This document shows positions 34,120 through 55,468 of a stretch of 64,000 nt of DNA, piece by piece. The position numbers were made by a program, and so were the translations under genes. Origin of the DNA: Qipengyuania algicida (GTDB lineage Bacteria > Pseudomonadota > Alphaproteobacteria > Sphingomonadales > Sphingomonadaceae); NCBI RefSeq assembly GCF_009828025.1, contig NZ_WTYA01000009.1, positions 62,001 through 126,000 on the forward strand, written 5' to 3'. The notes beneath the pieces were generated by a model. That model did not search any database, was not told the DNA's origin, and saw only the letters and a list, made by a program, of their open reading frames with translations. Each line of letters opens with the position of its first letter. Position 1 is the first letter of the stretch.

Positions 34120-35166
34120 GTGAAAAAACCGACAATTGACGATGTGGCATCCTTAGCCGGCGTGGCCCGGACAACTGTCTCGCGAGTGCTCAACAATCAA
34201 CCAAATGTTCGCGAAACTATGCGACGTAAGGTACTACAAGCGGTAGAAACGCTCGGGTTTCAGGTAAATCTACAAGCGCGCAACCTGGCAGGGCGCAATG
34301 ACATCAGAATTTGCCTGGTCCATGCGTCAGATTTCGAAAACGAGCCAAATTCTTACTTTAGTTCAGCCCTAGAGCTGGGTGCCACTAGGGCGGCTGCTCG
34401 TCTCGGTGTACAGTTGCTCATCCATGTCGTGAATCAAAATGATTGCGAAGCAGCCAAGCAAATTATTTCACGGGTTATCAGTGATGATTGCGACGCAGTG
34501 ATCTTGACGCCCCCCTTCGCCGACGATGAGAGCTTGCTTAGGTCTCTCGCCGGCGCTGGACGACGCGTGCTTTGCGTCGCTGCGGCTCCTGACACTGCTG
34601 ATCTGGCGATGACACTGGGAATAGACGATGAGCGAGCAGGATACGATATCGGCCTTCACCTTGTATCTCGTGGGCATCGCAAATTTGGATATGTCGGCGG
34701 GCTTGAAGGCCACATTTCCGCTGAAAGCCGATATGAAGGATTTCTTCGGGCGCTTGCGTGCTCCGACATCAGCCCGGATGCGGTGGTCAAGGAAAGAGGT
34801 AATTTTACTTTCCGGTCCGGCATAGAATGCGGGCAGCGGCTACTTTCCGCCGCTCATGGCATAACCGCTCTTGTTTGCGCTAATGACGATATGGCTGCCG
34901 GAGCATTGCTGGCGGCACACAAGCTTGGACTTCAAATTCCGTCCGATGTGGCAATCACAGGTTTCGATGACACGCCTGTATCACAGATCGTTTGGCCGCC
35001 ACTTACCACCATACACCAGCCCTTACGCGCAATGGGCGAACGCGCAGTTGAACGATTATCTACCTCCACGGAAGAGACGTTGGACGAACCTGCAAGAGAG
35101 CTATGTGAGCATCATTTGATCGCTCGGGAATCCAGCGTGAGTGAGGCAATTCAGCCACACACTTGA
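34120..35166 (+). CDS. LacI family transcriptional regulator of the sugar locus
   Basis: A 348-residue repressor. The N-terminal HTH starts at once (VKKPTIDDVASLAGVARTTVSRVLNN), followed by the hinge region and a periplasmic-binding-protein-like effector domain (GIDDERAGYDIGLHLVSRGHRKFGYVGG, ANDDMAAGALLAA, ITGFDDTPVS). The GTG at 34120, with GGAAAG upstream, puts the HTH at the N terminus as in all LacI proteins; the frame stays open to 33892 and a longer form (for example ATG 33973) cannot be excluded. It precedes a TonB-receptor/glycosidase operon and a perfect 18-bp palindrome, so it most likely represses that operon until a sugar binds. Confidence 0.9.
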   Translation: MKKPTIDDVASLAGVARTTVSRVLNNQPNVRETMRRKVLQAVETLGFQVNLQARNLAGRNDIRICLVHASDFENEPNSYFSSALELGATRAAARLGVQLLIHVVNQNDCEAAKQIISRVISDDCDAVILTPPFADDESLLRSLAGAGRRVLCVAAAPDTADLAMTLGIDDERAGYDIGLHLVSRGHRKFGYVGGLEGHISAESRYEGFLRALACSDISPDAVVKERGNFTFRSGIECGQRLLSAAHGITALVCANDDMAAGALLAAHKLGLQIPSDVAITGFDDTPVSQIVWPPLTTIHQPLRAMGERAVERLSTSTEETLDEPARELCEHHLIARESSVSEAIQPHT

Positions 35167-35216
35167 TGCATCAGTACAAGGTCACTTGACCACCAAATTG
35201 AATTGTAGCATTCGGA

Positions 35217-35234
35217 ATTGGAAGCGCTTCCAAT
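35217..35234. promoter_or_regulatory. LacI-type operator, perfect 18-bp palindrome
   Basis: ATTGGAAGCGCTTCCAAT is a perfect palindrome with the central CG typical of LacI/GalR operators. It lies 51 bases after the regulator stop and about 60 bases before the TonB receptor start. TTGACC at 35186-35191 may be part of the controlled promoter. Confidence 0.75.
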
Positions 35235-35240
35235 AGTGGA

Positions 35241-35259
35241 CGCCGGCAGTTCGCCGGCG
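35241..35259 (+). promoter_or_regulatory. hairpin in the 5' leader of the TonB receptor gene
   Basis: CGCCGGC-AGTTC-GCCGGCG, a perfect 7-bp GC stem between the LacI operator and the ribosome-binding site. It may stabilise the transcript; no T run follows. Confidence 0.35.
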
Positions 35260-35295
35260 GGCAGGAAACAAGCCAGCGATCAGGGAGGAAATCTG

Positions 35296-38172: not shown

Positions 38173-38184
38173 TCTCTTCTTAAA

Positions 38185-38227
38185 GGGACCCGATCCGTTG
38201 CTTATCGGGCGGTTCAAATCGGGTCCC
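38185..38227 (+). promoter_or_regulatory. intercistronic stem-loop between receptor and GH3 genes
   Basis: A perfect 10-bp stem (GGGACCCGAT at 38185-38194 pairing with ATCGGGTCCC at 38218-38227) with a 23-base loop starts 13 bases after the receptor stop. No T run follows, so it looks like a message-stabilising or attenuating element rather than a simple terminator. Confidence 0.5.
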
Positions 38228-38272
38228 AAAATTGTCTTAGATATTGCCCGCAATCCAGCGAAAGGTCTGAAC

Positions 38273-40282
38273 TTGCCCGTCGTGCGAAACTCAAGGCTGC
38301 GTGTTTCCCTTCTTCCACTCGCGCTGCTGGTATTGGGCTCTACACCTGCCAGTCTGGCTTCGGTTCCTGAGTGGACCGCAGCGCAACGATCCGTGATAGC
38401 GGCATGGCCTCCGCGCTCTACCACTACGACTAAAAGTCGGTTGAGTACTGCCGACGAGGAGCGGATCGCCAAGATTGTTGCCGGGATGACCCTCGAACAG
38501 AAGATTGGGCAGATGACCCAACCCGAAATTCGCTGGATTACACCGGATCAGGTGCGCCAATATTATATCGGCTCAGTGCTTAATGGTGGTGGGTCTTGGC
38601 CTGAAATGAATAAGCATGCGTCGCTCTCCGACTGGACCAGACTGACAAAATCGTATGCTACCGCGGCGATGGAAACCGATATGCCCACGCATATACCGCT
38701 ACTTTGGGGAATCGATGCGGTACACGGCAACAACAATGTGATGGGTTCGACGCTTTATCCCCACAATATCGGGTTGGGAGCAGCGCATGATCCTGAACTC
38801 CTGTTCCGCATTGGTCGGGCGACAGCGCGGGCGGTTCGTGCAATCGGTGCAAGCTGGGCGTTCGCCCCTACCGTCGCCGTCTCGCGTGATGCACGGTGGG
38901 GACGGGCTTACGAAAGTTTTTCAAGCGATCCCGTTGAGGTTGCAAAAGACGGTGCGGCTGTCGTCCGCGGACTGCAGGGATCGATTTCCGGACCTGACGA
39001 CGTACTGGCAACGGCCAAGCATTTTGTCGGCGATGGCGGCACGGCTCGAGGTCAGGACCAAGGGGACAACCTGGCCACTGCGAATGCACTCGCCCGTGTC
39101 GATGGGGCAGGATATTATGCCGCGCTCGACGCGGGCGTCCAGACCGTCATGGTGTCCTATTCGAGTTGGACCGATGGTGGCAAAATTCCGTTTGGCAAAA
39201 TGCACGGTGACAGAACGCTGGTCACCGGGGTGCTGAAGGACAGGCTTCATTTTGACGGGTTAGTCGTGTCCGACTGGAATGCGATCGAGCAGGTCCCAGG
39301 CTGTACGGTGGATCATTGCCCGCAAGCCGTGAATGCGGGAATCGACGTATTCATGGTGTCCGAGAAATGGAAGGAATTCATCGCCAACACCGTAGCGGAT
39401 GTGCGCGCGGGAAGAATTCCCATGAGCCGAATAAATAATGCCGTGACCCGCATCCTGAGGGTCAAAATGCGTGCTGGCCTCTTCGATCACCCGGTTGCAT
39501 CCAGCCCGCTCACTGGCGATCAAGCCGCCCTGACTGATCGCCCCTTGGCCCGCGAAGCAGCGCGTAAATCCGTGGTTCTGCTGAAGAACAATTCGTTCAA
39601 GACCAGCGCATCGCCGATCTTGCCTCTGCGCGTTGGCAAGCGCATTCTGGTCGTAGGCGGCGGAGCTGACAGCTTTGCCGAACAGACCGGGGGCTGGTCG
39701 CTTACCTGGCAAGGTGACGATAACGTCAATGCCGATTTCACCACTGGTGAAACGTTGCTGGCAGGGCTGAGGCGGGTCTATGGCGCTGCCAACGTTACCT
39801 ATTCACCCGATGGCACGGCTCTCGCAAAGGCGCAGTACGATGCCGTGATCGCAGTAATTGGCGAAACACCCCATGCTGAATACAAGGGTGACGTGCGATG
39901 GCCTGCTCCGCTTGCCGAATCCGCAAGCTATCCTGAACAGCTCAAGCTGCTGAAGCGAGTATCAGGCAAGGGAGTTCCGGTGGTGACTGTGCTCTATTCG
40001 GGGCGCCCGACATACACTAGCGATATAATCAATCGCTCTACAGCCTTTGTCGCCGGGTTCCTTCCCGGCAGTGAAGCCGGAGCGCTTGCTGACCTTCTCG
40101 CCGGAAGAAAAGGTCTGGACTTCAGCGGTCGACTCTCATTTGCATGGCCTAATACTGCCTGTCCCACAGGTGGTGAACTTGCCAGCGAAACACTGTTCAA
40201 ACGCGACTACGGCCTGAGCTATCACCATGGCGGCACTGTCCATCATCTGGCAGAATTGTCAGTACCTCGATCTTGCCCCTAA
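38273..40282 (+). CDS. glycoside hydrolase family 3 beta-glucosidase
   Basis: Secreted exo-beta-glucosidase of about 669 residues. A signal peptide (SLLPLALLVLGSTPASLA) leads into the GH3 N-terminal barrel with WGIDAVHGNNN near residue 150, KHFVGDGGT near residue 250 and the nucleophile Asp in LVVSDWNA near residue 330. The C-terminal alpha/beta sandwich carries ESAS and the final YGLSY element. It resembles beta-1,4/1,3-glucan glucohydrolases. TTG 38273 has an AAAGGT ribosome-binding site; a TTG at 38198 lies inside the hairpin, and GTG 38282 is another choice. It would release glucose in the periplasm from imported oligosaccharides. Confidence 0.92.
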   Translation: MPVVRNSRLRVSLLPLALLVLGSTPASLASVPEWTAAQRSVIAAWPPRSTTTTKSRLSTADEERIAKIVAGMTLEQKIGQMTQPEIRWITPDQVRQYYIGSVLNGGGSWPEMNKHASLSDWTRLTKSYATAAMETDMPTHIPLLWGIDAVHGNNNVMGSTLYPHNIGLGAAHDPELLFRIGRATARAVRAIGASWAFAPTVAVSRDARWGRAYESFSSDPVEVAKDGAAVVRGLQGSISGPDDVLATAKHFVGDGGTARGQDQGDNLATANALARVDGAGYYAALDAGVQTVMVSYSSWTDGGKIPFGKMHGDRTLVTGVLKDRLHFDGLVVSDWNAIEQVPGCTVDHCPQAVNAGIDVFMVSEKWKEFIANTVADVRAGRIPMSRINNAVTRILRVKMRAGLFDHPVASSPLTGDQAALTDRPLAREAARKSVVLLKNNSFKTSASPILPLRVGKRILVVGGGADSFAEQTGGWSLTWQGDDNVNADFTTGETLLAGLRRVYGAANVTYSPDGTALAKAQYDAVIAVIGETPHAEYKGDVRWPAPLAESASYPEQLKLLKRVSGKGVPVVTVLYSGRPTYTSDIINRSTAFVAGFLPGSEAGALADLLAGRKGLDFSGRLSFAWPNTACPTGGELASETLFKRDYGLSYHHGGTVHHLAELSVPRSCP

Positions 40283-40326
40283 ACCGGTAGAGATTGTCGC
40301 AACGCCCGGAACGAGCAATAGGCAGT

Positions 40327-41829
40327 ATGGTCCCAATTAAACGCATTCTGATTGCCGGAGGAGGGTCGTCGGGATGGATGACGGCCGCATTGCTGTCCAA
40401 GCTGTTTCAGGGCCTCTACGAGATCGTGCTAGTTGAATCCGACGCGATTGGTACGATCGGGGTAGGCGAAGCCACTATCCCCGCGATCAAGAAGTACAAC
40501 GAGTTGCTGGGCCTCGATGAAAACGCGTTCATGGCCTCCACCCAAGCCTCGTTCAAGATGGGTATCCAGTTCGTCGATTGGTGGCGCAAAGGCGAAAGCT
40601 ATATTCATGGGTTCGGTGTCATTGGCCAAAATCTGGAATGGCTTGGATGCCATCAATATTGGTTGAAGGCGCGTGCCACAGGTCATGTGCGCTATTTCGC
40701 CGATTATTCGATCAACACTGCGGCGGCGCTCCAGAACAAATTCCTTCGCGCCCAAACGCAAATGGGTGAAAGCCCACTCAGCCACATCGTCCACGCATTC
40801 CATTTCGATGCATCGCTATTTGCGCGTTTCCTCTCAAATTTTGCTCAACAGCGCGGTGTGCATCGCCGTGAAGGTCGCATCGTCGATGTGAATTTGCGCA
40901 GCGACGGATACATCGAGTCTGTCACGCTGGAGGACGGAGAAACCGTCGCTGCTGACCTGTTTATCGATTGCTCTGGCTTTCGCTCGCTGCTTCTCGGACA
41001 GGCCCTGAGTGTACCATTCGATGATTGGTCGCACTGGCTACCATGCGATCGGGCCATCGCCGTACCAAGCGACAGGGCGGTAAACTTCACACCTTATACG
41101 CGTGCGACAGCGCATGGCGCTGGTTGGCAATGGCGTATCCCATTGCAGCACCGCACTGGCAATGGCCTCGTCTATTCCAGTCGGCATATAGCAGACGAAG
41201 ACGCTGAAAACCTTTTGCTATCCAACCTCGATAGCGCACCGCGGACCGACCCGCGTAGAATTGCGTTCAAAGCTGGAAAGCGGAAAGAGCTGTGGCGAAA
41301 GAATTGCATTGCTATCGGACTGGCCGGGGGCTTTCTTGAGCCGCTTGAATCGACCAGCCTGCACTTGGTCCAGTCGGCGATCATCCGACTGGTCAAACTG
41401 CTCCCGGACCGCAATTTCGATCCCGCAACCATAGCCGAATTCAATCGTCAGAGCGATTTCGAATATGAACGTATCCGCGACTTCATCGTCCTTCACTATG
41501 CCGCAACGCAGCGTAACGATACCGAGTTCTGGAATTACTGCCGAACCATGGATCTGCCAGATACGCTGCAACGAAAGATAGATCTCTGGATGGGCAATGG
41601 GCGCATCTTCCGGGAGGATGACGAGCTGTTTGCGGAGGAAAGCTGGATCCAGGTCTTCATTGGCCAGGGACTGATCCCGCGCGGCTATGACCCAATGGTC
41701 GATATGAAGAAGGACGACGATGTGACGCGATACCTCGACGATATAGCCATGGTGATTGGTAAATGCGTGAATGTGATGCCAACGCATGAAGACTACGTCG
41801 CGAAAACATGTCCGGCTCCTGCACCATGA
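40327..41829 (+). CDS. tryptophan halogenase family flavoprotein in a sugar locus
   Basis: A flavin-dependent halogenase-like protein of 500 residues. The FAD loop is GGGSSGWMTA near residue 12, and GVGEATIP follows near residue 50. The Lys of ASFKMGIQF is at the position of the catalytic Lys of PrnA. The halogenase motif WQWRIP lies near residue 265, and GFLEPLESTSLHLVQ near residue 340. All halogenase hallmarks are therefore present. Such genes recur in TonB-receptor/LacI sugar loci of sphingomonads and caulobacters, where the real substrate is unknown. ATG 40327 gives the canonical N terminus; the frame from 40294 is an alternative. Its stop overlaps the GH30 start (ATGA). Confidence 0.88.
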   Translation: MVPIKRILIAGGGSSGWMTAALLSKLFQGLYEIVLVESDAIGTIGVGEATIPAIKKYNELLGLDENAFMASTQASFKMGIQFVDWWRKGESYIHGFGVIGQNLEWLGCHQYWLKARATGHVRYFADYSINTAAALQNKFLRAQTQMGESPLSHIVHAFHFDASLFARFLSNFAQQRGVHRREGRIVDVNLRSDGYIESVTLEDGETVAADLFIDCSGFRSLLLGQALSVPFDDWSHWLPCDRAIAVPSDRAVNFTPYTRATAHGAGWQWRIPLQHRTGNGLVYSSRHIADEDAENLLLSNLDSAPRTDPRRIAFKAGKRKELWRKNCIAIGLAGGFLEPLESTSLHLVQSAIIRLVKLLPDRNFDPATIAEFNRQSDFEYERIRDFIVLHYAATQRNDTEFWNYCRTMDLPDTLQRKIDLWMGNGRIFREDDELFAEESWIQVFIGQGLIPRGYDPMVDMKKDDDVTRYLDDIAMVIGKCVNVMPTHEDYVAKTCPAPAP

Positions 41830-43289
41830 TCGTCGCACGCCAACTTTGCAAAGTGATCGCCGGATGTTGTTCGATGCTGGTTGCGGCCTGCGCCGCCACC
41901 AGCATTCAACCAAACTCATCCGGTGTATGGTCCCATAAGGTCGCCATGTGGAGCACCAGCGCTGATGGGGCTCGTCGCCTCGCCAGGGGTGCCGATAGCA
42001 CACTCGAACGCTCGGGTGCTTCGGCTGAACCGGCACAAACTCTACTGGTCGTAGATCCCAGTAAGAGCTTCCAGAGCATGGTCGGCTTCGGAGCGGCAAT
42101 GACCGATGCGTCGGCCATCCTCTTCGAACAGACATTGTCGAGGCCTGCACGGGACCAATTGTTCAGCGAACTTTTCGGTCGCAAGGACGGAGGGATCGGG
42201 TTGTCGTTCCTGCGCGTGCCGATCGGTGCTTCCGATTTCTCGACCAGTCATTACAGCCTGGATGATGTGCCTACCGGTGAACGTGACCCCGCTCTGACAC
42301 ATTTTTCCATGGCTATCCCGGATCAAGCGCAGGTCCCTGCCCTACGTGCGGTACGACGAATAAATCCCGAAGTTACTTTGGTCGCCAGCCCTTGGTCGGC
42401 TCCGGCCTGGATGAAGACGAGCGACAGCCTCGTCACCGGTCACCTGCGCCCAGATGCATATGGGCCCTATGCTCACTATCTTTCGAACTATCTTGACGCG
42501 ATGGCCGAACGCGGCGTGCCGATTGCCTATCTCACTATTCAGAATGAGCCGCATTTCGAGCCCAAGGATTATCCGGGCATGTGGATGAACGCAAAGGATC
42601 GCGCAGCTTTCGACGGCAAATTTCTCGGGCCCCTGCTGGCCAAGCGCGGACAATCGACGCGCTTGCTCGACTGGGACCACAACTGGGACCATCCCGAAGA
42701 ACCTCTTGCGGTGCTCGCCGACGCTTCTGCTCGCAAATATGTCAGCGGTATTGCCTGGCATTGCTACGCGGGCAATGTTTCTGCCATGGAGCCGGTCAAG
42801 CGCGCCTATCCCAAAAAGGATGCGTTCATTACCGAGTGTTCTGGCGGGACCTGGGCACCGGATTGGGCCTCCACCCTGGGGTGGATGACCGACAAGCTGA
42901 TCATTGCCGCGACACGCTATGGTTCAAGGGGAACCATTTTGTGGAATCTCGCGCTCGACGAGAACAATGGACCACATGACGGAGGTTGCGGGACCTGCCG
43001 TGGAGTGGTGACGATTAACCGCAAATCCGGCGCCATTACCCGCAACCTGGAATATTACGTTCTCGGGCAGGCAAGTCGCTTTGTCGACGTGGGGGCAAAG
43101 CGGATCGAAAGCACTGAAGCCAAAGACCTTGTTGATGTCGCTTTCCGCAATCGTGATGGCTCCATAGTTTTGATAGTGCACAATCAGGCGAAGAAGCCTC
43201 AGTCTTTCACCGTCAGTATCGGGCCGCGCTACTTCAGCACTAAACTGCCAGCAGGTGAGATCGCGACTTATGTCTGGGGAGGGCGTTAG
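41826..43289 (+). CDS. glycoside hydrolase family 30 beta-glycosidase (lipoprotein)
   Basis: About 487 residues with a lipoprotein signal (lipobox LVAAC), then the GH30 barrel: GFGAAMTDAS near residue 90, GIGLSFLRVPIGASDFS near residue 120, the acid/base Glu in IQNEPHFEP near residue 240 and the nucleophile Glu in ITECSGG near residue 340, followed by the GH30 beta domain. The family includes glucosylceramidases and endo-beta-1,6-glucanases. With the GH3 gene it suggests a beta-glucan, possibly with beta-1,6 linkages. ATG 41826 overlaps the halogenase stop; ATG 41808 is an alternative. Confidence 0.9.
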   Translation: MIVARQLCKVIAGCCSMLVAACAATSIQPNSSGVWSHKVAMWSTSADGARRLARGADSTLERSGASAEPAQTLLVVDPSKSFQSMVGFGAAMTDASAILFEQTLSRPARDQLFSELFGRKDGGIGLSFLRVPIGASDFSTSHYSLDDVPTGERDPALTHFSMAIPDQAQVPALRAVRRINPEVTLVASPWSAPAWMKTSDSLVTGHLRPDAYGPYAHYLSNYLDAMAERGVPIAYLTIQNEPHFEPKDYPGMWMNAKDRAAFDGKFLGPLLAKRGQSTRLLDWDHNWDHPEEPLAVLADASARKYVSGIAWHCYAGNVSAMEPVKRAYPKKDAFITECSGGTWAPDWASTLGWMTDKLIIAATRYGSRGTILWNLALDENNGPHDGGCGTCRGVVTINRKSGAITRNLEYYVLGQASRFVDVGAKRIESTEAKDLVDVAFRNRDGSIVLIVHNQAKKPQSFTVSIGPRYFSTKLPAGEIATYVWGGR

Positions 43290-43297
43290 GTCGGTAC

Positions 43298-44557
43298 ATG
43301 ATTAGCCGAGTGCGCGAGTTGGGGATTTCCGGCGCATTTGTCTCGGTGACAGTGCTGTTTTTTGCTTGGGGTTTTATCTCATCAAACAACGATCCACTGA
43401 TCGTCGCTCTTCGAGCGATATTCGGTTTGAACTATACTGAAGCGTTGAGCACCCAGCTTGTTTTCTTCTTGGCGAGCGGCCTAATTTCCCTGCCAGCGGC
43501 ATCGCTGGGCAACAGGTTTGGGCAGGTCCCATCGATCATTGTATCCTTGGCCGGGATTGCAATCGGTTGTCTCCTGGTTCGCATGGCGGCAAGCCTTGCA
43601 AGCTATGAACTGATCCTCTGCGCTTTGTTCGTCATGGCTGCTGGAATCACTTCGCTTCAGGTAGCCGCTAATCCGCTCGCAGCCGCAATGGGGCCAAATG
43701 AAAGCAGTCATTTTCGTCTCAACTTCGCGCAGTCTTTCAACTCGTTAGGGGTGGTCATCGGCGTTCATTTCGGCACTATGGCTATGCTGGGGGGACAAAT
43801 ATATTTGGTGAACCGCGGTCGGCTGGACAATTTGGTAGAGCGCCGCATTGCTCTTGCATCAATAGAGACTGCATATGGTGTGATGGCCTTGGCGATCGCT
43901 GCTCTGGCTCTCTTCATATGGCTACAGCGCAAGCGAATTAGCCAGATTGCTGTCGCCGCACGACCTGAGCCGAAGGCATCGGTGCTCGATGCACTCAAAT
44001 CGAAATGGGCATTGTTTGGAGCACTTGCGATAGGACTCTACGTCGGCGCAGAAGTTGCGATTGGCAGCATAATGATTGTCTTCCTGCATCGCTCAGACAC
44101 TCTCGGGATGACATTTGAAGATGGTGGCCGCTATTTGGCCAATATCTACTGGGGCGGCGCCCTGGTGGGACGGTTGATCGGCACCATCCTGCTGACGAAG
44201 ATACCTGCCACTCGGCTACTGGGGCTTTGTGCGGCGATTTCAGCTGCTCTTTGTGCAATTGTATGCCTGCTTACAGGTCCGATGACTGGCTATGCCGCTC
44301 TCGCAATCGGTCTGTTTAATTCGATCATGTTCCCGACCATCTTCTCGCTAACACTTGAGCGTTCCGGCGCGTCGAATTCTTCAACGTCAGGACTGTTGTG
44401 CCTTGCGATTATAGGAGGTGCCGTCGTTCCGCTTGTCGTGGGTTTGATCGCAGATTCTACCAGCCTTTCCAGCGCATTCATCGTGCCTGCAGGTGCATAT
44501 TTGGCAGTTGGCCTATTCGCATGGAGGGCGGCGCATATAAAGATTCAAGAAAGTTAA
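43298..44557 (+). CDS. MFS sugar permease of the FucP/GluP type
   Basis: Twelve-helix permease of 419 residues with the FucP/GluP N-terminal signature FFAWGFISSNNDPLI and the paired element LNYTEALSTQLVFF. Related proteins import glucose, galactose or fucose by proton or sodium symport across the inner membrane. It starts 9 bases after the GH30 stop and closes the operon, matching a pathway in which periplasmic glycosidases release a monosaccharide for uptake. Its GC content is lower than that of the glycosidase genes. Confidence 0.9.
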   Translation: MISRVRELGISGAFVSVTVLFFAWGFISSNNDPLIVALRAIFGLNYTEALSTQLVFFLASGLISLPAASLGNRFGQVPSIIVSLAGIAIGCLLVRMAASLASYELILCALFVMAAGITSLQVAANPLAAAMGPNESSHFRLNFAQSFNSLGVVIGVHFGTMAMLGGQIYLVNRGRLDNLVERRIALASIETAYGVMALAIAALALFIWLQRKRISQIAVAARPEPKASVLDALKSKWALFGALAIGLYVGAEVAIGSIMIVFLHRSDTLGMTFEDGGRYLANIYWGGALVGRLIGTILLTKIPATRLLGLCAAISAALCAIVCLLTGPMTGYAALAIGLFNSIMFPTIFSLTLERSGASNSSTSGLLCLAIIGGAVVPLVVGLIADSTSLSSAFIVPAGAYLAVGLFAWRAAHIKIQES

Positions 44558-45267
44558 ACATATCGACTAATCTTGGGCCGTCTCATGCTTATCCGTTTTC
44601 ATCATCCAATGTGGGATAAGCGATCATTCCTGCGATCCAGATTGAATTTCAGCAGACGCTGAATTAGATGACGTTCACGACGCCTCGCCACAGCGCTGAA
44701 ACCGGACACTTATTCACATGGCGAATTGCGGCAGATCCTGGGTCGTATTCTGACAGGCAGGAATTAGGGTGAAATAGCGCCATAGCTGCCCTCCAAAAGC
44801 ATTAAGGTTCACAACGGTCTCGAATGTCCGCTTCGGAAGTTTTCCAAACCCAAAGCAGAATTTCCGGAAACGACCCAATTCCAGACATTGAGCAAGAATC
44901 AGTCCGAATTCCGCTTTGCGCCCCAATGTCGGTAGTTGGAGACAGGATACCGTTCTCCCAAAAGCAGACATACGCTCAACGCCAGATCGACGACTGAGTT
45001 TGGGACAAAGCGGTCGCTCCCGAATGAAACGAGAAACGTCAGCTTGTGCCAAAACCCGACCTCTTTAAGATGCAACGCTGCCGAGAACTACGCAATCGGG
45101 CAAAACTCACTCAAGTGCTGTTCAAGCCGGACGCTTTGACAGCTCCCCGCGAGATCATATTGTCGAGCCTACCGTGCGCGAAGTACAAACGCGCGAGCGG
45201 GGTGCAGAAGACGAGACGTGGCCGGATCGCTACCGAACCAAGTCGCGTGATCGGGAGCGATAGAGAT
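44558..45267. other. intergenic segment with repeat fragments, no confident gene
   Basis: About 700 bases between the permease and the next operon. It carries a copy of the ATGTCCGCTT block near 44823 with related GC-poor remnants (CCGGAAACGACC, CAGACATTGAG, TCCGAATTCCGCTTTG). From GTG 45046 the next gene's frame is open, but without a recognisable domain until 45268. Confidence 0.4.
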
Positions 45268-46506
45268 ATGCCGGAGATGGGCGACCTCTTGCGGGAGGGC
45301 AGTGTCACAGATCCTTTTTTCGAGGTGCTGTACGACGGCGACTGGAATGCCTGCATCGGAAAGCAGGGCGACGAGATCAACTACGTCGAAGGCTATCTCC
45401 AGGCGGCGCAACTGCTAGTCGATACGCTGTTGGAAAAGGAAATGTTCGGCAGCCGCGACACGCTTGCCATGCCAATCCTCTTCAATGCCCGACACGGCCT
45501 GGAACTGGCCCTGAAATATGTCCTTCGCGAGTTTAGCGCGCTCGGCATGGCGCGCACGCGGGAGGGCCCGGTGGACCATGATCTCCATGCCTACTGGGTG
45601 CATCTCAGCGAGCAGCACATCGGCGACCGGGCGTGTCGCGAGCAGCTGGCGGAGCTCAAGCCGTTCGTCGAGAGCTTCATGAAGCAAGATATCGACGGAC
45701 AGGAGCTGCGATATTTCGAAAATCGCGACGGCAAACAAAGCCTCGGCGAGCAGGCTGTTGTCAACCTCCCGCTCATTCAGGCCGCGGTGCGGGAGCTACT
45801 GTACATTCTGGAGCGGCTAATGGAGCGCGTGGCCTGCCTTGCCCAAGAGCATATCTCCGGCACGAGGACTGCGGAATGCTCTCGATCGGACCTCATCGCG
45901 ATCGCTCGGATCGTCGGCCCAAAACAAAGCTGGACCGAAGATGCCTTCTTGGATCGCAAGGCCGATGCTATGGCTCAATTCGGGCTTTCCAGCAAAGGCT
46001 TCTCGAAGGCGCTCGATGCCGTCAAGGCGTCGCGCGAGCTGAAGAACATAATCGAGGTCGAGAGTGATCTGCTGCATCTGTCAGAAGCGAAGATCGTAGA
46101 AATCGTCGCGCTGTGGCTGGACGCCAATCCGCCGAAGCCTGCCAATACGCCGCCGCGCGTGGTCAACGCCTCCAGTATAAGCTTCGACGACGTCATGCGC
46201 TACGGCGACAAAATGAGCGCGCTGAACAGAGCCGTGATGAAGCAGCTGACTGTCGAAGAATTCGCGGACCTGCAGGCGATCTACTATGTGGGCCGCGACC
46301 GGCGGTTCGGGGAAGAATATCCTCGTTTGCTCGAGACAACGCTGGCGGCGCACCGTCTCGCGAAGGAGCGCTACGCACTCTTCCATCACATCCTGTCGAA
46401 GAAGAACTTTATCGACGGTCTGGCTGCCGGATTGCGGCGCGTCGGTCAGCCCGCGCTCGGCGACAAGGTTGCACAGATGCGCGATGCGCTGCGCCCTGCG
46501 GAGTGA
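45268..46506 (+). CDS. unrecognised protein with a HEPN-like helical core, first gene of a two-gene operon
   Basis: About 412 residues, mostly helical. Residues about 60-80 read FNARHGLELALKYVL, and later come DHDLHAYWVHLSEQH and QELRYFENRDGK. This spacing of R-H-x-x-E-L-x-L-K, H-D-L and R-Y-x-x-x-x-x-G is reminiscent of HEPN-like proteins, but no clear R-x(4-6)-H catalytic motif is seen. The C-terminal half has a separate helical region (LIAIARIVGPKQSW and onward). ATG 45268 follows GGGAG; the frame is open back to GTG 45046. The next gene starts within 15 bases. Function unknown; a defence or stress role is inference from context. Confidence 0.65.
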   Translation: MPEMGDLLREGSVTDPFFEVLYDGDWNACIGKQGDEINYVEGYLQAAQLLVDTLLEKEMFGSRDTLAMPILFNARHGLELALKYVLREFSALGMARTREGPVDHDLHAYWVHLSEQHIGDRACREQLAELKPFVESFMKQDIDGQELRYFENRDGKQSLGEQAVVNLPLIQAAVRELLYILERLMERVACLAQEHISGTRTAECSRSDLIAIARIVGPKQSWTEDAFLDRKADAMAQFGLSSKGFSKALDAVKASRELKNIIEVESDLLHLSEAKIVEIVALWLDANPPKPANTPPRVVNASSISFDDVMRYGDKMSALNRAVMKQLTVEEFADLQAIYYVGRDRRFGEEYPRLLETTLAAHRLAKERYALFHHILSKKNFIDGLAAGLRRVGQPALGDKVAQMRDALRPAE

Positions 46507-46517
46507 AGGTACGTTCG

Positions 46518-48575
46518 ATGGAGCTGCGAGAGAAGATCGTCCGCGAGGCGTTTGCCAAGAAGGACGTCAAACCACTGCTGTCGCATCTCAGAGCTATCTC
46601 ACTGGGATCCGACGAAATCGACACGCTGGCGTCGCTGCTGAAGCGCGGCTGCCTACCACTCTTTGAATATCCGAATGCGAAGGCCGAGGCGGCACGCGAG
46701 GATGCCATCGCTCAGATCGTCGCGATCATCGAGGCCAGGGCGCCGATCGGCGCCGCCGACGACATCAAAGCCGTCCTCGCGCTCTTCAAGCTCATCGAGT
46801 CCGGCTACCGCGCCATCCTGGAGGATCTTGCGGGACTGCCGTCGGCGAGCCTCACGCCCGAGTGCCGTATCTCGGCGCTTTTCGACCTTTGCGCCCAACG
46901 CCGCGATGGCGTCCGTACGGCATCCATGGATGCGATCACCGTCGACGGGATGATCGACCCGATCGGGCTCGGTGTCGCCGATGGGCATGGCAATGTCGTA
47001 TCGCCCGACGTCCCGATCGACGTCGATGTGGTGACATTGACGATGGCGCTCAAGATGGAGGCGTTTCAGCAAGGATGGTTCAACGCGTCCGATCAGCTTG
47101 TTCTGCCGAAACGCGTCGAAACCACGACCGACGAGCGCGAGGCCGTGCGACCTCTACTGATAGCGGCCCAAGCCTGGCGGCACTGGACATGGATCCAGGA
47201 AGAGACCCGATATTTTGACGGAACCTTGACGGATGTTCCGCCTTCGGAATTTCCGCAGGAGTATCACGACGCGGGCGTAACCCGATTTCTGCGCCATGTG
47301 CCGGGAAGCGCAGGATGGCATGTGATCGACCTCGCCGCGAACGAGCGGCTCCACCTGCGGATCAAGCAAGAGGCAGCGCAGATGGCGTTCGGTTCGAACG
47401 CCGCCAAGCTGGTCAAGGGCGTCTCGGACAAGACCCCGCTCCTCCCGGATGCGTTCGTCAGCATTGAGGAACTGCAGTCGGCGCATACTCTTGACCATGC
47501 GCTGAGCACCAGCGTCGCCACCGACACGACACAATATCGCGGGCTCCGGTTGGTCGAGTGGCTCCGTGGCTATGCCACGCTTCAGGAACTGGTTGCGGCA
47601 CCGTATGAGGCGGGCGACCATCGCCCCGAACTGCTGCTCGTCGAGTTCGAGCGAGTGGACCTGATCAAGCGTCTGCAGCGCGTCGGGCTCGCCGGCGCGA
47701 AGGCCAACAGCTTCATTAACTTGGTCTCTTTTGACAAGGGAACGCGCGATCTCTTTGATACACCCATCTTATGCTGTGGGTCGACGACAATGCTCCTTTA
47801 CGGCCCCGCGCTCGTCGGGGGAATACCGGCGCAGACCACGCTCTCGCGCCTCGCCTGCCTGAAACAATCGCTGGAAGCCCGCGGCAAGGCTTTCGAAAAG
47901 GCGATGCTCGCCTTCATGGAAGGGGAAGGGCTCGATGCGCGCACCATCACCGTCCGGCGCGGCCGGGAAGAGTATGACTATGATTTGCTGGTCCGCTGGG
48001 ACGAGCGCATCTTCCTCTTCGAGTGCAAGAGCCGATCCCTGTCGGGCAACAATCTGGTCGCGTCTTATTATGACGCGCTGGAGCTGGACAGCCAGGTCGG
48101 GCAGGTCACTCGACTGGTCGACGGCCTGAAGCTGCACCCGGACATTCTCGATGGTCTGTTCGGCCCAGGGGCCAGCGAACTCGAGCTGATCCCGTCCGTG
48201 CTGAACGTGCTGCCGATGAGCGTTCCGCACCCGATCGACGGCGTCTATTTTACCGACGCCTCCGCGCTCACGCGCCTGTTCCATAGCCCAGCGCTGATGA
48301 TGAACACCGTCCGAAGCGAGAGTAATCCGTTCTTCGCGAGTGTCCCAACGCGGCGGCTCTGGGCGGGCGACACCATCTGTGCAGACGATCTGGTGCACCA
48401 GCTGCAGTCGCCAGTTCAGCTCAACCTCATGTTGCGTCAGATCGGAACGACGCAGAGCATGGGGTGGCTCAAGCCCGGGTGTCTGGCGGCCACGACCCGT
48501 ATCCTGCACCAGGTCGTCCCGACTAGTACGTTGACTGCGATGCTCGGCGAAGCAGGGGATGCCCGTCGACCGTGA
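46518..48575 (+). CDS. unrecognised 685-residue protein with a PD-(D/E)xK nuclease-like motif
   Basis: A large soluble protein. Near residues 480-505 it has EEYDYDLLVRWDERIFLFECKSRSL: an acidic residue on one strand and E-x-K on the next, preceded by a helix with FEKAMLAFM, which fits the PD-(D/E)xK nuclease core. The first 450 residues and last 180 residues match nothing I recognise. ATG 46518 has GAAGG 8 bases upstream; GTG 46503 overlapping the preceding stop is an alternative. It forms an operon with the HEPN-like gene and lies next to a tyrosine recombinase. I infer a nucleic-acid-directed, possibly anti-phage, role, unproven. Confidence 0.65.
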   Translation: MELREKIVREAFAKKDVKPLLSHLRAISLGSDEIDTLASLLKRGCLPLFEYPNAKAEAAREDAIAQIVAIIEARAPIGAADDIKAVLALFKLIESGYRAILEDLAGLPSASLTPECRISALFDLCAQRRDGVRTASMDAITVDGMIDPIGLGVADGHGNVVSPDVPIDVDVVTLTMALKMEAFQQGWFNASDQLVLPKRVETTTDEREAVRPLLIAAQAWRHWTWIQEETRYFDGTLTDVPPSEFPQEYHDAGVTRFLRHVPGSAGWHVIDLAANERLHLRIKQEAAQMAFGSNAAKLVKGVSDKTPLLPDAFVSIEELQSAHTLDHALSTSVATDTTQYRGLRLVEWLRGYATLQELVAAPYEAGDHRPELLLVEFERVDLIKRLQRVGLAGAKANSFINLVSFDKGTRDLFDTPILCCGSTTMLLYGPALVGGIPAQTTLSRLACLKQSLEARGKAFEKAMLAFMEGEGLDARTITVRRGREEYDYDLLVRWDERIFLFECKSRSLSGNNLVASYYDALELDSQVGQVTRLVDGLKLHPDILDGLFGPGASELELIPSVLNVLPMSVPHPIDGVYFTDASALTRLFHSPALMMNTVRSESNPFFASVPTRRLWAGDTICADDLVHQLQSPVQLNLMLRQIGTTQSMGWLKPGCLAATTRILHQVVPTSTLTAMLGEAGDARRP

Positions 48576-48894: not shown

Positions 48895-49527
48895 TTAGAT
48901 TTCGGTGCGCTCCGCCAGCAGCAGGGCATCTTCAACGTCGACCCCTAGATAGCGAACAGTATTCTCGATCTTGGTGTGACCCAGCAAAATCTGGATCGCA
49001 CGAATGTTGCCTGTCGCCCGGTAAATCATGGCGGCTTTCGTCCGGCGGAGCGAGTGCGTGCCGTACTCGGATTTGCGCAGGCCTATCGCTGTGACCCACT
49101 CATCTACCAGACGTGCGTACTGGCGCGTGCTCATGTGACCGGCATGATCGATCCTGCTTGGAAATAGATAGTCGGTGATCGACCCGCACCGACGCTCCAG
49201 CCACGAAAGCAGCGTTGCACGAACATCTGCGGTCAATTCAAACTGGACCGGGCGACTTGTCTTCTGCTGGATCACGATCGCTCGGGTGCGGACGTCTGCC
49301 CCGGCTACGACGTCGCCGATCTTGATCTTGACCAGGTCACAGCCGCGCAGCTTGCTGTCGATCGCGAGATCGAAAAGCGCCTTGTCTCGCAGCCAACCCT
49401 TTCGATCGAGATGAAAGCCTATTGCCCAGCTATGCTTCTGCGTCAGTGGTCGCTTTGTGCCAACGGTCTTGCCGGCATTCCATGCCGCGCGCGCCTGTAT
49501 GGCGGGGTCAAATCTTGAGTAGCCCAT
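48895..49527 (-). CDS. tyrosine-type recombinase/integrase (short form)
   Basis: A 210-residue protein containing only the catalytic domain of a tyrosine recombinase. The first Arg is in SKLRGCDL near residue 60, H-x-L-R-R is present as THSLRRTK near residue 162, the second His in LLGHTKIENT, and the nucleophilic Tyr in VRYLGVD near residue 192. The N-terminal SAM-like core-binding domain is much reduced, as in short recombinases common in sphingomonads. It lies at the right side of the accessory region and could have mobilised it, although no attachment-site pair was found. Confidence 0.88.
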   Translation of the reverse strand: MGYSRFDPAIQARAAWNAGKTVGTKRPLTQKHSWAIGFHLDRKGWLRDKALFDLAIDSKLRGCDLVKIKIGDVVAGADVRTRAIVIQQKTSRPVQFELTADVRATLLSWLERRCGSITDYLFPSRIDHAGHMSTRQYARLVDEWVTAIGLRKSEYGTHSLRRTKAAMIYRATGNIRAIQILLGHTKIENTVRYLGVDVEDALLLAERTEI

Positions 49528-51112: not shown

Positions 51113-52336
51113 TCAGTCGGTCGTATTGCATCGCGATGCTGTATCACCGGGCAGCCCGACGAGGGCTGGAATGAAGCGTCTTGCAAGGAGTGATGCGGAT
51201 CGCGCTATGGCTGTCCGGTCGGTTTCGTCGCCGACTTCATAGGTATAGGCGGGGATGCCATAGCGTTGATGAAACCAGTTCTTCGATGTTCCCGAACCGG
51301 GATTCGCATTGCGACGTTCGATCGTGAAATCATAGCCGGGTATCGGCCCTGCTCGGCCGAGCCATGACGAGAGAAAGGCTTCTTGCGCTGCATCGGTTTC
51401 AGCCTTGCCCTGTACGTAGAACAGGTTGCGCCCGGTAGAATGGAAATCCACCATCGCGATGGGACAGACGTCCACCGACAAATCATTCAGCCAGTTGCGC
51501 ACCGCTTGGGTTTCAGGCTGGGTGAAGTGGCCCCAGTCGCGATTGAGGTCCTGCCCGCCGCGATTGGCGCGCCAATGCCCATGATACACACCGTCGGGAT
51601 TGAGCATGGGGACGATAAGAAAGCGATAGCGATCAAGGTCGACTTCTCCTACTGCAATCTGCGCGGCCAGTTCGTGCAAGAAGGCTTCCATCGCCAATGC
51701 CCCGGTTACTTCGGGGGGATGCTGGCGCCCGATCAGGACGACGAGATAGGGGGCTTTCGCGCTGCCTAAAAGGAGCGCCTTGAGCGGGCGCCCGTCAAGC
51801 GACCTGCCCAGCGTCAGGCGCGTGCTACCCTGCAATTTCGCCAGCCGATCGAGCAATCTGTCGTAACGCGCCTGTCCGAAAATCTCCTGTCCGCTGACGA
51901 TGCCACCACCTGCAGGCAGTGTCAGTCGGGCATGGCGCCCGGCTTCACTGACCTGCGCGCCGAGTACACTCACCGTACCGTTTTTGCTCAGCTTGGGCCG
52001 GTACCGATGTTTCGCATCGATATAGTCGAGCCTAACGGTAATGTTTTGATCCCCCACCGTGCGATAACGGAAAGCATACCACGGGCTGGGATTGATCGGC
52101 GGAGCATGTTCCGGACCGATCGCCAGAGCAAATTCGCGCTCTCCCAAGATTGCGCAACGGGATACAGCGGCTCCGTCGAAATCGAACGAGATCGAAGCAG
52201 CCGCGGTGGAACATCCAATTTGCGATTTGGTCCGCGACGCCTCGGCTCGCGCGGATACGATCGGCGGCGCGCCAGCGCACGCCGCCGTCAATGTCAGAGC
52301 CAGTCCGAGACCGGCAAGGCGCCAGGGTTTGCGCAG
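51113..52336 (-). CDS. M14 family zinc carboxypeptidase, lipoprotein, apparent CTG start
   Basis: About 407 residues. Zinc ligands are His and Glu of GRQHPPEVTG and the His of VDFHSTGRN; DLNRDWGHF gives the substrate-binding Asn-Arg; the catalytic Glu lies in YTYEVGDETD. A canonical start exists only at TTG 52291, which would cut off most of the signal. In the same frame, upstream CTG 52334-52336 gives LRKPWRLAGLGLALTLTAAC, a complete lipoprotein signal, with GAGGGAAAG just before it. The frame is bounded by the TAG of the upstream TonB receptor gene, only 9 bases away. It likely trims a peptide or amino-acid conjugate in the periplasm. Confidence 0.85.
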   Translation of the reverse strand: MRKPWRLAGLGLALTLTAACAGAPPIVSARAEASRTKSQIGCSTAAASISFDFDGAAVSRCAILGEREFALAIGPEHAPPINPSPWYAFRYRTVGDQNITVRLDYIDAKHRYRPKLSKNGTVSVLGAQVSEAGRHARLTLPAGGGIVSGQEIFGQARYDRLLDRLAKLQGSTRLTLGRSLDGRPLKALLLGSAKAPYLVVLIGRQHPPEVTGALAMEAFLHELAAQIAVGEVDLDRYRFLIVPMLNPDGVYHGHWRANRGGQDLNRDWGHFTQPETQAVRNWLNDLSVDVCPIAMVDFHSTGRNLFYVQGKAETDAAQEAFLSSWLGRAGPIPGYDFTIERRNANPGSGTSKNWFHQRYGIPAYTYEVGDETDRTAIARSASLLARRFIPALVGLPGDTASRCNTTD

Positions 52337-52345
52337 CTTTCCCTC

Positions 52346-55300
52346 CTAGAACGACTTGCGAATGCCGAACGTGAACTGCCGACCACGCGCGTTGGCAAGT
52401 GCGCTGAAAAAGCCGAAGCTCTCATCGGCAAGCGGCGGTGCCTCGTTGAAGAGATTGTTGATCCCGAACATCAGCCGCGTCCCGTCGATCGCCGTGTCGC
52501 TGCGGATCGTGTAGCTGACGGTCGCATTGAGCGTGAACCAGTTGTCCACCGGATAGAGTGCACCGGGATCGGGATTGGGATTGCCATCGAAATCGGTCGC
52601 ATCCTGCGTGACGCTGTCATCCAGAACGCTGCCAACGTACCGCCCGAACAGGGAAGCGCGAACCGGGCCTGAGCGCCAGTTCATCGTTGCGGTCCAGCGC
52701 CATTTCGGGCGTCCGTTGATCCCGCGCTGTTCGCCGATATCGCTAATGACAATGCTGTCGGGCAGCGTGCCGTCCGCCACCGCATTCAGCAGTTCTTCCC
52801 CGTCCGGTCCCGGCGACTGGTAGAAACTTTCCAGCAGCGCTGCGTTGAACGACAGATCGAACCGGCCGAGACCGAACTCGGGAACTCGGTAATTGACTGC
52901 AAAATCCCAGCCTTTCACCCGGCGGCTATCGAGGTTTTTGTACGGGTCGAGCACCTGCACCACCGAACCGACCGGGGCCAGCCCGGTGCCATCGAACAGC
53001 GCAACCTGGTCGGCGTCGGGAGCATTGCGGATGACGTTGGGATTGGTCGATCCTTCAAGTCGGCGAAGCAGGTCGAGCGCCAGCGCGTTGTCGTCCCCGA
53101 AGACGCCGACGATCCCCTTCTGCTCGACCCGCCAGTAATCGGCGGTAATGGTGAGGCCGGGAATGAACGACGGCTTGAGTACGACGCCCAGATTGATGCT
53201 CTCAGTGGTTTCCGGCTTGAGCACATTGGTGCCCGTCCTCTGCGATACAGTACCCGTGCCCGTGCAGTCGTCGAAAGTGGAGATCTCTCCCTTAAGGATC
53301 TGCGCATAGCACTGGACGTAATCGTCGCGAGTGTTGACACGCGTTGTCCCGACATCATTGACCTGCACAAGATTCGGCGCACGGAAACCCTGTGACCAGG
53401 CACCACGCAGCATCAGCCCGTCCAGCATCGTCCATGATGCGGCGACGCGCGGGACGACCGTGGTTTCATCGATATCCGTGAAATGCTCCATCCGCCCGGC
53501 AAACTGGACTTCGAAACGCTTCACCAGCGGCACATGCATGTCCTCGGACACGATGGGCACGAAAGCTTCGGCGAAGGCCGAATACACGTCCCGTCGCCCG
53601 CTCGTATCGGGCGATGGGCTGGAATTCATCACGTCGCTGCCGAAGAAGTCCCCAGTGACGGAATCGGTAAAGGTGATCGTTCCGTCGAGCCGCGGATCGC
53701 GATCGTCGCTGAATGTCTCGCGCCGCCATTCGACCCCGGCCGCGAGCCCCAGATCGCCACCAGGCAGGGCAAGCAGATTCGATTTAGAGACCTTGAAATC
53801 CGCCAGAGCGAGCGTGGTCTCGCCCTTACGATAGACGTCGATCCGGATCGCATCGAGCGCCGCCTGGCTGCTGGGCGTGCAATCGCCATTGGCAGGCGCG
53901 TAGGCGCGGCTGGGATCGTAGCAGCCGCCATTGAAGGGGTTGTAGGCATCCGGCGTGCTGAGATTGATCTGGTTCTGGAAGGCTGTGTTGGAAATGCGAT
54001 TCTTCGTCAGGTCGGTCTTGTTCGCCTGCTCGTATACGAAACCGGTATCGTAATCCCACCCGCCAATGTCACCGCGCAGGCCGGCGACGATGCGATAATC
54101 GTTCTTGGTCACAATGGTCTGGCGCGGTCCGGCATCGACCACGCGATAGCGTTCGAGGATCACGTCGCGCCCATCGGCGTCCACACCGTCGATCCCGCTG
54201 GTCAGGCGATTCGGGTTGGTCGAACCGTCAGGAAAATTCTCGGCGCCGAAAGGATTGTAATAGGCATCACGCGAAATGCCGATCGGCACGGCGCTCAGCA
54301 GCGCGCTAGGTTGTCCCAGGCGGCTCGACTTGGTGCGATAGAAAGAACCCTCGACATAGAATTCGGCTGCGTCGCTGAACTGGTGATTGAACAGGACCAT
54401 CGCATTGTAGCGGTTCTTTTCCGAATAGAGCGAGCGCGCAGCGTCGAGGTCGTAGCGCAAGGGCACATCGACCGATGTCCCATTGTCTGCACAAATCCCA
54501 TTGCCGAGATCCAGTCGGCAGCCCGAAAAGCTGTCCGGCTGGATCTGGAAATCGTCGTCTCCGATATCGGTTGCGCTGCTGGGTTTCGAACCTTGGATGT
54601 CGAACTGGCCCCACGGCGTATATGTCGATGTGTTGCGGAAATTGGTGTCGCCATAGTACGGCGTGCCTTCGAGCCTGGGATCGAATTCCCGGTCGCTGCT
54701 ACGCGCATAGTCCCTGATGCTGCTCGGCGCGCCGTTTTCGTAGAAATAGCCGCCATAGACGGTCAAATTGCTGCGCCCGCCGTTGAAATCGAAGCCATAG
54801 GCTCCGCGAAGGCTGGTGTTGAACAGCCCTGTCCCATCGGAAACACGATATTTGGCATCGGCATAGCCGCCGTTGAGATTGCTCTTGAGGACCGTGTTGA
54901 CCACGCCCGCAACCGCATCCGCACCGTAGATTGCCGATGCGCCATCGCGCAGCACTTCGATCCGGCGCACGCTTCCGGGAGGGATAGTGTTGGTGTCGGG
55001 CGAAACCACCGGAACCAGCAGTTCGGTCTGGAAGCCCGGATCGTTGACCATCCGGCGGCCGTTAAGCAGCAGCAAGGTGTTGCCTGTGCCGAGTTCTCGC
55101 AAATTGATCGAGGCCACATCCCCGCGCGAGCTGTTGATGCCGCCGGTGGTGTTCTGTTCATTGAAGGCGACCGCGCCCGCCTGCGGGATCGCACGAAATA
55201 GCTCATCGCCCGATGACGGGTTGATCGCATCGATATCTTGCTGGCTCACCACCGTGACCGGCAGCACATCGTCGATATGCGCGCCCTTGATCTGGGTACC

Positions 55301-55468
55301 GGTGACGACGATCACATTGTTGGTCGCGACATCGGATGAAGCGGCTTCCGCCTGGCTATTGTCGCTGTCAGCCGGAGTTGCCGTATCCTGCGCCTGTGCG
55401 CTTCCGGCGAATGCGAGCATGCTGCCGCTGGCGAGCAGCATGAGCTTGCCGATGCTGGTGGTTCTCAT
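52346..55468 (-). CDS. TonB-dependent receptor
   Basis: A 1040-residue outer-membrane receptor with a signal peptide (cleavage after AQAQ near residue 27), a TonB-box-like segment VIVVTGTQI near residue 53, a plug domain with LNGRRMVND and GADAVAGVVNTVLK, and a long barrel ending in FTFGIRKSF. The plug resembles receptors with large extracellular loops that import peptides or other polymers. It is the third gene of the minus-strand dctA operon. Its stop lies 9 bases from the M14 peptidase start, so its ligand is probably the peptidase substrate or product. Confidence 0.92.
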   Translation of the reverse strand: MRTTSIGKLMLLASGSMLAFAGSAQAQDTATPADSDNSQAEAASSDVATNNVIVVTGTQIKGAHIDDVLPVTVVSQQDIDAINPSSGDELFRAIPQAGAVAFNEQNTTGGINSSRGDVASINLRELGTGNTLLLLNGRRMVNDPGFQTELLVPVVSPDTNTIPPGSVRRIEVLRDGASAIYGADAVAGVVNTVLKSNLNGGYADAKYRVSDGTGLFNTSLRGAYGFDFNGGRSNLTVYGGYFYENGAPSSIRDYARSSDREFDPRLEGTPYYGDTNFRNTSTYTPWGQFDIQGSKPSSATDIGDDDFQIQPDSFSGCRLDLGNGICADNGTSVDVPLRYDLDAARSLYSEKNRYNAMVLFNHQFSDAAEFYVEGSFYRTKSSRLGQPSALLSAVPIGISRDAYYNPFGAENFPDGSTNPNRLTSGIDGVDADGRDVILERYRVVDAGPRQTIVTKNDYRIVAGLRGDIGGWDYDTGFVYEQANKTDLTKNRISNTAFQNQINLSTPDAYNPFNGGCYDPSRAYAPANGDCTPSSQAALDAIRIDVYRKGETTLALADFKVSKSNLLALPGGDLGLAAGVEWRRETFSDDRDPRLDGTITFTDSVTGDFFGSDVMNSSPSPDTSGRRDVYSAFAEAFVPIVSEDMHVPLVKRFEVQFAGRMEHFTDIDETTVVPRVAASWTMLDGLMLRGAWSQGFRAPNLVQVNDVGTTRVNTRDDYVQCYAQILKGEISTFDDCTGTGTVSQRTGTNVLKPETTESINLGVVLKPSFIPGLTITADYWRVEQKGIVGVFGDDNALALDLLRRLEGSTNPNVIRNAPDADQVALFDGTGLAPVGSVVQVLDPYKNLDSRRVKGWDFAVNYRVPEFGLGRFDLSFNAALLESFYQSPGPDGEELLNAVADGTLPDSIVISDIGEQRGINGRPKWRWTATMNWRSGPVRASLFGRYVGSVLDDSVTQDATDFDGNPNPDPGALYPVDNWFTLNATVSYTIRSDTAIDGTRLMFGINNLFNEAPPLADESFGFFSALANARGRQFTFGIRKSF

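Follow-up and report, generated by a model that had tools for sequence, protein, structure and literature searches.

The described systems closest to the gene pair considered here are HEPN proteins of the AbiV and AF0298 types, the prophage-borne HEPN ribonuclease (RNase) Tha, the Mrr/NERD-type nucleases and the cargo loci of P2-type phages. According to Anantharaman et al. 2013 (PMC3710099), Ex3[KR] is an ancillary motif of HEPN domains, and the AbiV and AF0298-type proteins typically lack the histidine of the Rx4-6H motif, keep its basic residue and carry a conserved histidine upstream, an arrangement that possibly constitutes an alternative active site. In PMC11087260, Tha, encoded by a Staphylococcus aureus prophage, is described with a C-terminal HEPN domain, an R-x4-H motif and an overlapping inhibitor gene. 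The pair in question lies on the forward strand of a 64,000-nucleotide (nt) stretch of the Qipengyuania algicida genome (assembly GCF_009828025.1, contig NZ_WTYA01000009.1, positions 62,001 to 126,000), referred to below as the window. Gene 1 (45268-46506) encodes a protein of 412 residues (P0001) with a predicted HEPN-like fold, and gene 2 (46518-48575) a putative nuclease of 685 residues (P0002) of the PD-(D/E)xK, Mrr/NERD-like type. The reading favoured here, with moderate confidence, is that these are two independently mobile single-gene effectors directed against phages or plasmids, which would have been stacked as cargo into one transcription unit.

Both genes are real, and not chance open reading frames, as judged from their relatives in other bacteria and from their low ratios of non-synonymous to synonymous substitution rates (dN/dS). 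The copies found in Sphingobium sp. TCM1 (locus L013) are 90% identical for protein 1 and 91% for protein 2, and the pairwise dN/dS values against them, 0.11 for gene 1 and 0.14 for gene 2, indicate purifying selection on both. The two genes are separated by 11 nt. By inspection, the TGA of gene 1 is overlapped by a GTG at 46503 that is in frame with gene 2, whose product may begin five codons earlier; this alternative start is present in the TCM1 copy too. A preliminary description of the locus, made from the letters alone, had already recognised two tightly spaced genes of 412 and 685 codons, and the coordinates, the gap and the dN/dS values agree with it. The motifs that it cited were all located as well: RHGLELALK at residues 75-83, HDL at 104-106 and RY at 148-149 of protein 1, and EEYDYDLL and FLFECKS in protein 2. 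Its remark that most of both proteins matched nothing known is right at the family level, since no Pfam or NCBIfam model reaches its cut-off for either protein; in PHROGs, neither has a match at E 0.1. These results support the existence of two families, unnamed in the libraries searched, that would belong to known superfamilies. A literature search on HEPN proteins in prophages or single-gene defence, and on NERD proteins in defence, showed, among the papers listed, no title or abstract beginning that describes them, which does not prove that the families are undescribed.

The 11-nt spacing and the overlapping GTG, kept in both known copies, together with the purifying selection on both genes, would suit an obligate two-component conflict system, in which the HEPN-like protein would act as sensor or regulator and the PD-(D/E)xK protein as effector, or with these roles exchanged. 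The distribution of the relatives argues against such a system. A search of 72,556 plasmid records gave 40 with a match to protein 1, of which 22 are from Klebsiella, and four with a match to protein 2 (from Agrobacterium, Klebsiella, Erwinia and Exiguobacterium); no accession is common to the two lists. A tblastn comparison of the collected loci gave 59 loci matching protein 1, 23 matching protein 2 and five matching both, redundant copies being counted; these five are four copies of the window locus and that of TCM1. This comparison was pairwise at 1e-3 and could overlook a partner that has diverged strongly or that lies outside the fetched flank. With profiles, family 1 was detected in eight and family 2 in six of 398 genomes of the phylum, some through short weak matches, and in four and two, respectively, of 385 genomes of the class; in both sets the only genome with both families is the window's own. 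Three loci on genome contigs match protein 2, namely TCM1, with the pair; Leisingera, where gene 1 is missing and an apparent tyrosine-recombinase gene lies upstream; and Sphingomonas sanguinis SB4, whose copy begins near a contig end, the upstream side falling beyond the contig. The conserved neighbourhood expected of a two-gene defence system was thus not found, the pair being seen only in the window and in TCM1. The pair does not correspond to an MNT-HEPN module either, in which the partner gene is a minimal nucleotidyltransferase: the partner of gene 1 has a D-ExK core and no Pfam match at E 1. As far as the fetched flanks show, a conserved two-gene module is not indicated, and the relatives of each gene appear to occur without the other. 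The two-gene operon or module of the preliminary description is not borne out outside TCM1, and an obligate two-component system is regarded as unlikely.

The assignment of protein 1 rests on its predicted structure. The AlphaFold2 model, built on 21 sequences, has a mean predicted local distance difference test (pLDDT) score of 81.9. After realignment of 939 chains with VIA-align 2, the ten top rows are all of the HEPN or HepT type (Z 10.6 to 8.6, mostly over residues 34-195): six are titled HEPN, two MntA-HepT, and the remaining two are 7bxo and 5yep, which we take to be the same Shewanella HepT/MntA pair. The best match is 4nqf (Z 10.6, 128 residues aligned, 2.9 Å), followed by 2hsb, that is AF0298 (Z 10.4, 120 of 126 residues, 3.1 Å), and the next unrelated row is a catenin (Z 8.2). 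Because helical bundles with a Z below about 13 may share their arrangement by coincidence, the HEPN match is good, not final. With this caution, a four-helix HEPN bundle is predicted at about residues 34-195 (45367-45852, forward strand). Other searches are less responsive: the Pfam HEPN model matches weakly one of the 21 family members (E 0.013) and not P0001, the family-1 profile finds only five matches among the PDB sequences, all at E 0.032 or worse, and the BFVD and Foldseek-PDB searches give nothing at E 0.001. A sub-threshold DUF3775 match covers residues 322-393 (E 1.8e-4); a literature search met the term DUF3775 in one unrelated paper.

In the 21-sequence alignment, residues G34, Y39, G42, A46, P69, R75, H76, E79, L80, K83, H104, D120, D141, Q145, R148 and Y149 are invariant, and N73, D105 and G144 are kept in at least 90% of the sequences. 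Three motifs can be delimited on the forward strand: N73-x-R75-H76-x-x-E79-L-x-x-K83 (45484-45516), H104-D105 (45577-45582) and D141-x-x-G144-Q145-x-x-R148-Y149 (45688-45714). The first includes the ancillary motif in the form E79-x3-K83, both residues being present in 21 of 21 sequences. The HEPN-like character announced by the preliminary description therefore holds for the fold, as modelled, but not for the canonical RNase motif, which is absent. The view that the N-terminal half of protein 1 adopts a HEPN-like fold, with a motif set of its own replacing Rx4-6H, appears largely right on the basis of the model. With the AbiV and AF0298-type proteins, as described in PMC3710099, protein 1 shares the HEPN-like bundle, Ex3K and a conserved histidine placed before a conserved arginine. 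Because those proteins show a comparable arrangement, protein 1 may by analogy possess a diverged active site, made of one or more conserved histidines N-terminal to R148 and of Ex3K. It differs from them by its D-x-x-G-Q-x-x-R-Y motif and by a helical C-terminal half of about 200 residues, AbiV being compared by description only. Tha, likewise compared through its description (PMC11087260), is a studied analogue of family 1 in life style, as a HEPN protein found on prophages, whereas in protein 1 the HEPN domain is N-terminal and R-x4-H is absent.

For protein 2, the core lies at residues 451-562 (47868-48203, forward strand) and comprises E460, D489, E502-C-K504, Q529 and R532. The residues D489, E502, C503 and K504 are invariant across P0002 and nine of its relatives, ten sequences in all, with identities down to 13%, and E460, Q529 and R532 are invariant among six. 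The family-2 profile matches AF1548 (1y88) with an E value of 3.4e-5 and Can2 (7bdv) with 0.0095, in both cases over the aspartate and ECK, so that D489, E502 and K504 align with the catalytic D ... ExK of these proteins. The remaining signals lie below the thresholds of their families. NERD (PF08378) is reached by four of the six relatives scanned, with a best score of 20.7 of the 22.1 bits required, and not by P0002 itself, for which Pfam gives no match at E 1; Mrr_cat is reached by one of the six (P0003). In PADLOC, two weak PD-DExK (CARF-nuclease) matches, at E 0.018 and 0.04, cover residues 457-517 only. A low-confidence model predicts a helix (451-469), three strands (473-481, 484-494 and 497-502), a helix (520-539) and a strand (556-562), the order expected of PD-(D/E)xK. 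A PD-(D/E)xK core of the Mrr/NERD-like type, which the preliminary description had proposed in part, therefore appears largely right. Protein 2 has in common with Mrr/NERD-type nucleases, AF1548 and Can2 the D ... ExK core and the weak profile matches; it is set apart by the first 450 residues, a long and mainly helical region to which no fold was assigned, and it passes no family cut-off.

Two observations concern the surroundings of gene-2 relatives. A distant one overlaps a gene with a caspase domain (Peptidase_C14) at L042:304-4114, giving a pair of a caspase gene and a PD-(D/E)xK-like gene. A gene with an HExxH-like motif, with no Pfam match at E 0.01, stands just upstream of the Agrobacterium relative (L004:3660-4604).

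Family 1 was found in 25 distinct IMG/VR contigs, some of them linked only through intermediate relatives. In seven of these the P2-type genes V and S-R flank the gene-1 relative, which is on the opposite strand, in the order V - gene - S - R; the PHROGs names in L030 are baseplate assembly for V, tail completion for S and tail terminator for R, and V and R are named in the same way in L031. The gap between V and S contains an additional small gene in L060 and L063, and L029 and L030 may be one phage because their V, S and R are identical. This location between V and S is presumably that of Z/fun in P2, and the gene-1 relatives would thus resemble the cargo of a Z/fun-type moron locus by both position and orientation. 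The hotspot tested in P2 by Rousset et al. 2022 (PMC9122126), gpA-gpQ, is another locus, and the gene-1 family was not found named in the accessible part of that study of P2/P4 antiviral hotspots. A scan of viral contigs with P0003, of family 2, and one with A4 gave no match. In L070, the neighbour of a gene-1 relative is a primase that carries the domains Zn_Ribbon_Prim, Toprim and D5, a context which we read as P4-like and as an apparent satellite. A further relative, in L097 (G857:C1:2136500-2149500), has TniQ and Csy2-type genes close by and is possibly cargo of a CRISPR-associated Tn7-like element.

The gene tables inspected covered nine of the 40 plasmids with family 1, all four with family 2, and two of the four E. 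coli records; these last four were found with the Klebsiella pKPN5 gene as query among 5,426 E. coli genomes. Gene-1 relatives were observed near RloB- and AAA-type genes in L064, near ATP-binding, SIR2 and Abi genes on a Yersinia massiliensis plasmid, near ABC-three-component, PIN and DUF5677 genes on a Xanthomonas hortorum plasmid and near a restriction endonuclease on a Leclercia plasmid, and a broken relative lies near a HEPN gene on an E. coli chromosome. The link to defence suggested by the preliminary description is hence seen as an association with defence genes and with phage and plasmid cargo sites. Because of these cargo positions, of the patchy distribution and of the defence-gene neighbours, a role in defence against phages or plasmids is considered quite likely. 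The same observations, namely the recurrent prophage and plasmid cargo positions, one of them near Tn7/CRISPR-type genes, the very patchy distribution and the defence genes nearby in several cases, make it rather improbable that the two are accessory genes with some other role in the cell, such as RNA or DNA processing, and simply ride on mobile elements, even if this explanation would accord with the lack of an experimental tie to defence and with the mostly metabolic or regulatory genes that surround the pair in its island.

A former location of the pair can be traced through TCM1. Positions 45146-48550 of the window align with L013 6629-10033 at 89% identity, and this shared segment starts 122 nt upstream of the pair and covers all of it except the last 25 nt. 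In L013 a NikA/MobC-like gene is followed by a relaxase gene (PF03432) whose stop lies 3 nt before gene 1, and genes that look ParA- and ParB-like are found in the upstream region. The window retains a remnant of the 3' end of this relaxase gene, not intact, at 45146-45264 on the forward strand: 119 nt align over 120 with the end of the L013 gene at 77.5% identity (E 6e-21). Because this gene end is kept upstream of gene 1, the pair most likely sat earlier behind a relaxase on a mobilisable element; the direction of the transfer is part of this inference. The proximity of gene 1 to the relaxase stop in TCM1, downstream of the NikA/MobC-like and putative ParA and ParB genes, would also befit a toxin-antitoxin pair, or one for plasmid maintenance, that forms part of the mobilisation unit, and the best structural matches of protein 1 include HEPN toxins of the HepT type. 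Such a pair is nevertheless very unlikely: neither gene matches an antitoxin model, gene 2 lacks even a Pfam match at the permissive threshold given above, and no linkage to a relaxase was noted in the gene lists of the relatives, in which part of the names were assigned by inspection. In TCM1 the pair is directly followed, on the other strand, by a DrmC-like gene with a phospholipase D (PLD) fold (L013:10093-11364).

Several results weigh against the reading of the pair as stacked defence effectors. The structural matches of protein 1 to HEPN may reflect a common helical arrangement only, given their Z values; Foldseek alone found nothing significant for this protein, an MntA-HepT and a HEPN protein appearing at ranks 43 and 47; and no pair of alignment columns carries Rx4-6H in more than three of the 21 family-1 sequences. 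Below their cut-offs, the relative P0009 of family 1 matches an FMO-like Pfam model (20.2 of 22 bits), and P0003 of family 2 matches DUF4143 (21.4 of 28.1 bits) with a higher score than Mrr_cat. The structure model of protein 2 is poor (pLDDT 45, from a four-sequence alignment). PADLOC returned no strong match for either protein, 50,697 phage records contained no match to either at E 1e-3, and the literature search found no assay that could be tied to either family. No defence gene was present in the inspected gene tables around the Acinetobacter, Providencia and Salmonella relatives of gene 1. Finally, ordinary genes, including a response regulator and an M14 peptidase, separate the pair from a Dsr1-type gene of the same region, and the pair is therefore not inside a compact defence island.

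On the favoured reading of two separately mobile effectors, we infer catalysis, trigger, defence role, co-transcription and direction of transfer as follows. Protein 1 would most likely cut or bind RNA, through its rearranged HEPN site, once an invader triggers it, with the helical C-terminal half serving as sensor or regulator. Protein 2 would most likely cleave the DNA of the invader or, in a suicidal reaction, that of the host, by means of a metal-dependent D-ExK site. Each protein probably has its own sensor region and would act alone, as the relatives seem to do, and the common operon would provide joint expression of the two genes. The pair probably arose on a mobilisable element of sphingomonads, behind its relaxase gene, and its capture into the island next to a tRNA-Gln gene would have come later. 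A bolder and doubtful extension may be formulated. Gene 1 might be the founder of a class of HEPN-like effectors, so far undescribed, whose active site is rearranged (H76 or H104, R148-Y149, E79-x3-K83 and D141/Q145) and which is spread as single-gene immunity cargo on prophages of the P2 type, what looks like a P4-like satellite, conjugative plasmids and a seemingly CRISPR-associated transposon. Its wiring here to a DNA nuclease in one operon might then have produced a composite RNA-plus-DNA attack unit, carried by a mobilisable element behind its relaxase and turned against rivals on arrival.

The present surroundings of the pair are those of an accessory island. The tRNA-Gln gene (31025-31098, forward strand) ends in 47 nt (31052-31098) that form the left repeat of the island, and the right 47-nt repeat is found at G000:C21:136174-136220, equivalent to 74174-74220 in window numbering and thus outside the window. 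The island measures about 43.1 kb (G000:C21:93098-136220, window 31098 to 74220), extends beyond the window end and contains a full-length integrase of 386 residues (PF00589) just inside its right repeat. The accessory region of the preliminary description is supported, but its statement that repeats flank the pair is not confirmed: the repeats found are those of the tRNA-Gln end, and between 43 and 51 kb there are just short, imperfect pairs no longer than 31 nt. The tyrosine recombinase that it placed beside the pair does exist, as a neighbour 319 nt downstream of gene 2 (48895-49527, reverse strand, 210 residues, PF00589 E 3.9e-20), but is not part of the segment shared with TCM1. For this reason, and given the full-length integrase at the right repeat, it was rejected as the mobiliser of the pair. 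Pieces of the tRNA of at least 14 nt gave nothing useful elsewhere in the window, the second copy of the tRNA-Gln end lying beyond it, and Rfam recognised only the tRNA between 28 and 52 kb.

In four relatives, G137, G220, G160 and G697, the 47-nt tRNA end is likewise present a second time on its contig; in G137, G220 and G697 this second copy has beside it a related integrase, 37-39% identical to that of the island. No integrase is found among the called genes of the G160 island, which counts there against a simple one-integrase picture. The G137 island contains type I restriction-modification genes. All 41 genomes of the genus, that of Q. algicida included, possess the gene that borders the island on the right; in G197, G258, G693, G699 and G700 it shares a contig with the tRNA gene at a distance, read by eye, of roughly 6-12 kb, but in the other genomes of the genus compared it is far away or on a different contig. 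As a search for an empty site, these comparisons were informative only in part. The island genes at 51113-55468 have matches, many of them weak, in 24 of the 41 genomes, and give no boundary.

Around the pair are found a LacI-like regulator, a TonB receptor, sugar-use and major facilitator superfamily (MFS) genes, the response regulator and the M14 peptidase, the regulator and the sugar-use genes being named by inspection. To the left, a cluster resembling those for carbohydrate use (33892-44557) has a G+C content of 53-57%, lower than that of its flanks, and includes a regulator, a TonB receptor, a glycosidase-like gene, a halogenase-like gene and an MFS gene, of which the receptor and the MFS gene were identified by Pfam and the others were assigned by eye. 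Near the right end of the island are the Dsr1-type SIR2 protein (L074:6234-9872, PADLOC E 1e-102) and a PDC-S32/AbiJ_NTD4 protein (L074:4228-5028), on the reverse strand.

Two uncharacterised families are thereby brought within reach of direct testing. The gene-1 relatives would offer a test case for whether HEPN folds devoid of Rx4-6H can be active effectors. The stacked pair itself would illustrate how single defence-candidate genes join into an apparent two-gene system, and it calls for caution in naming systems from one locus.

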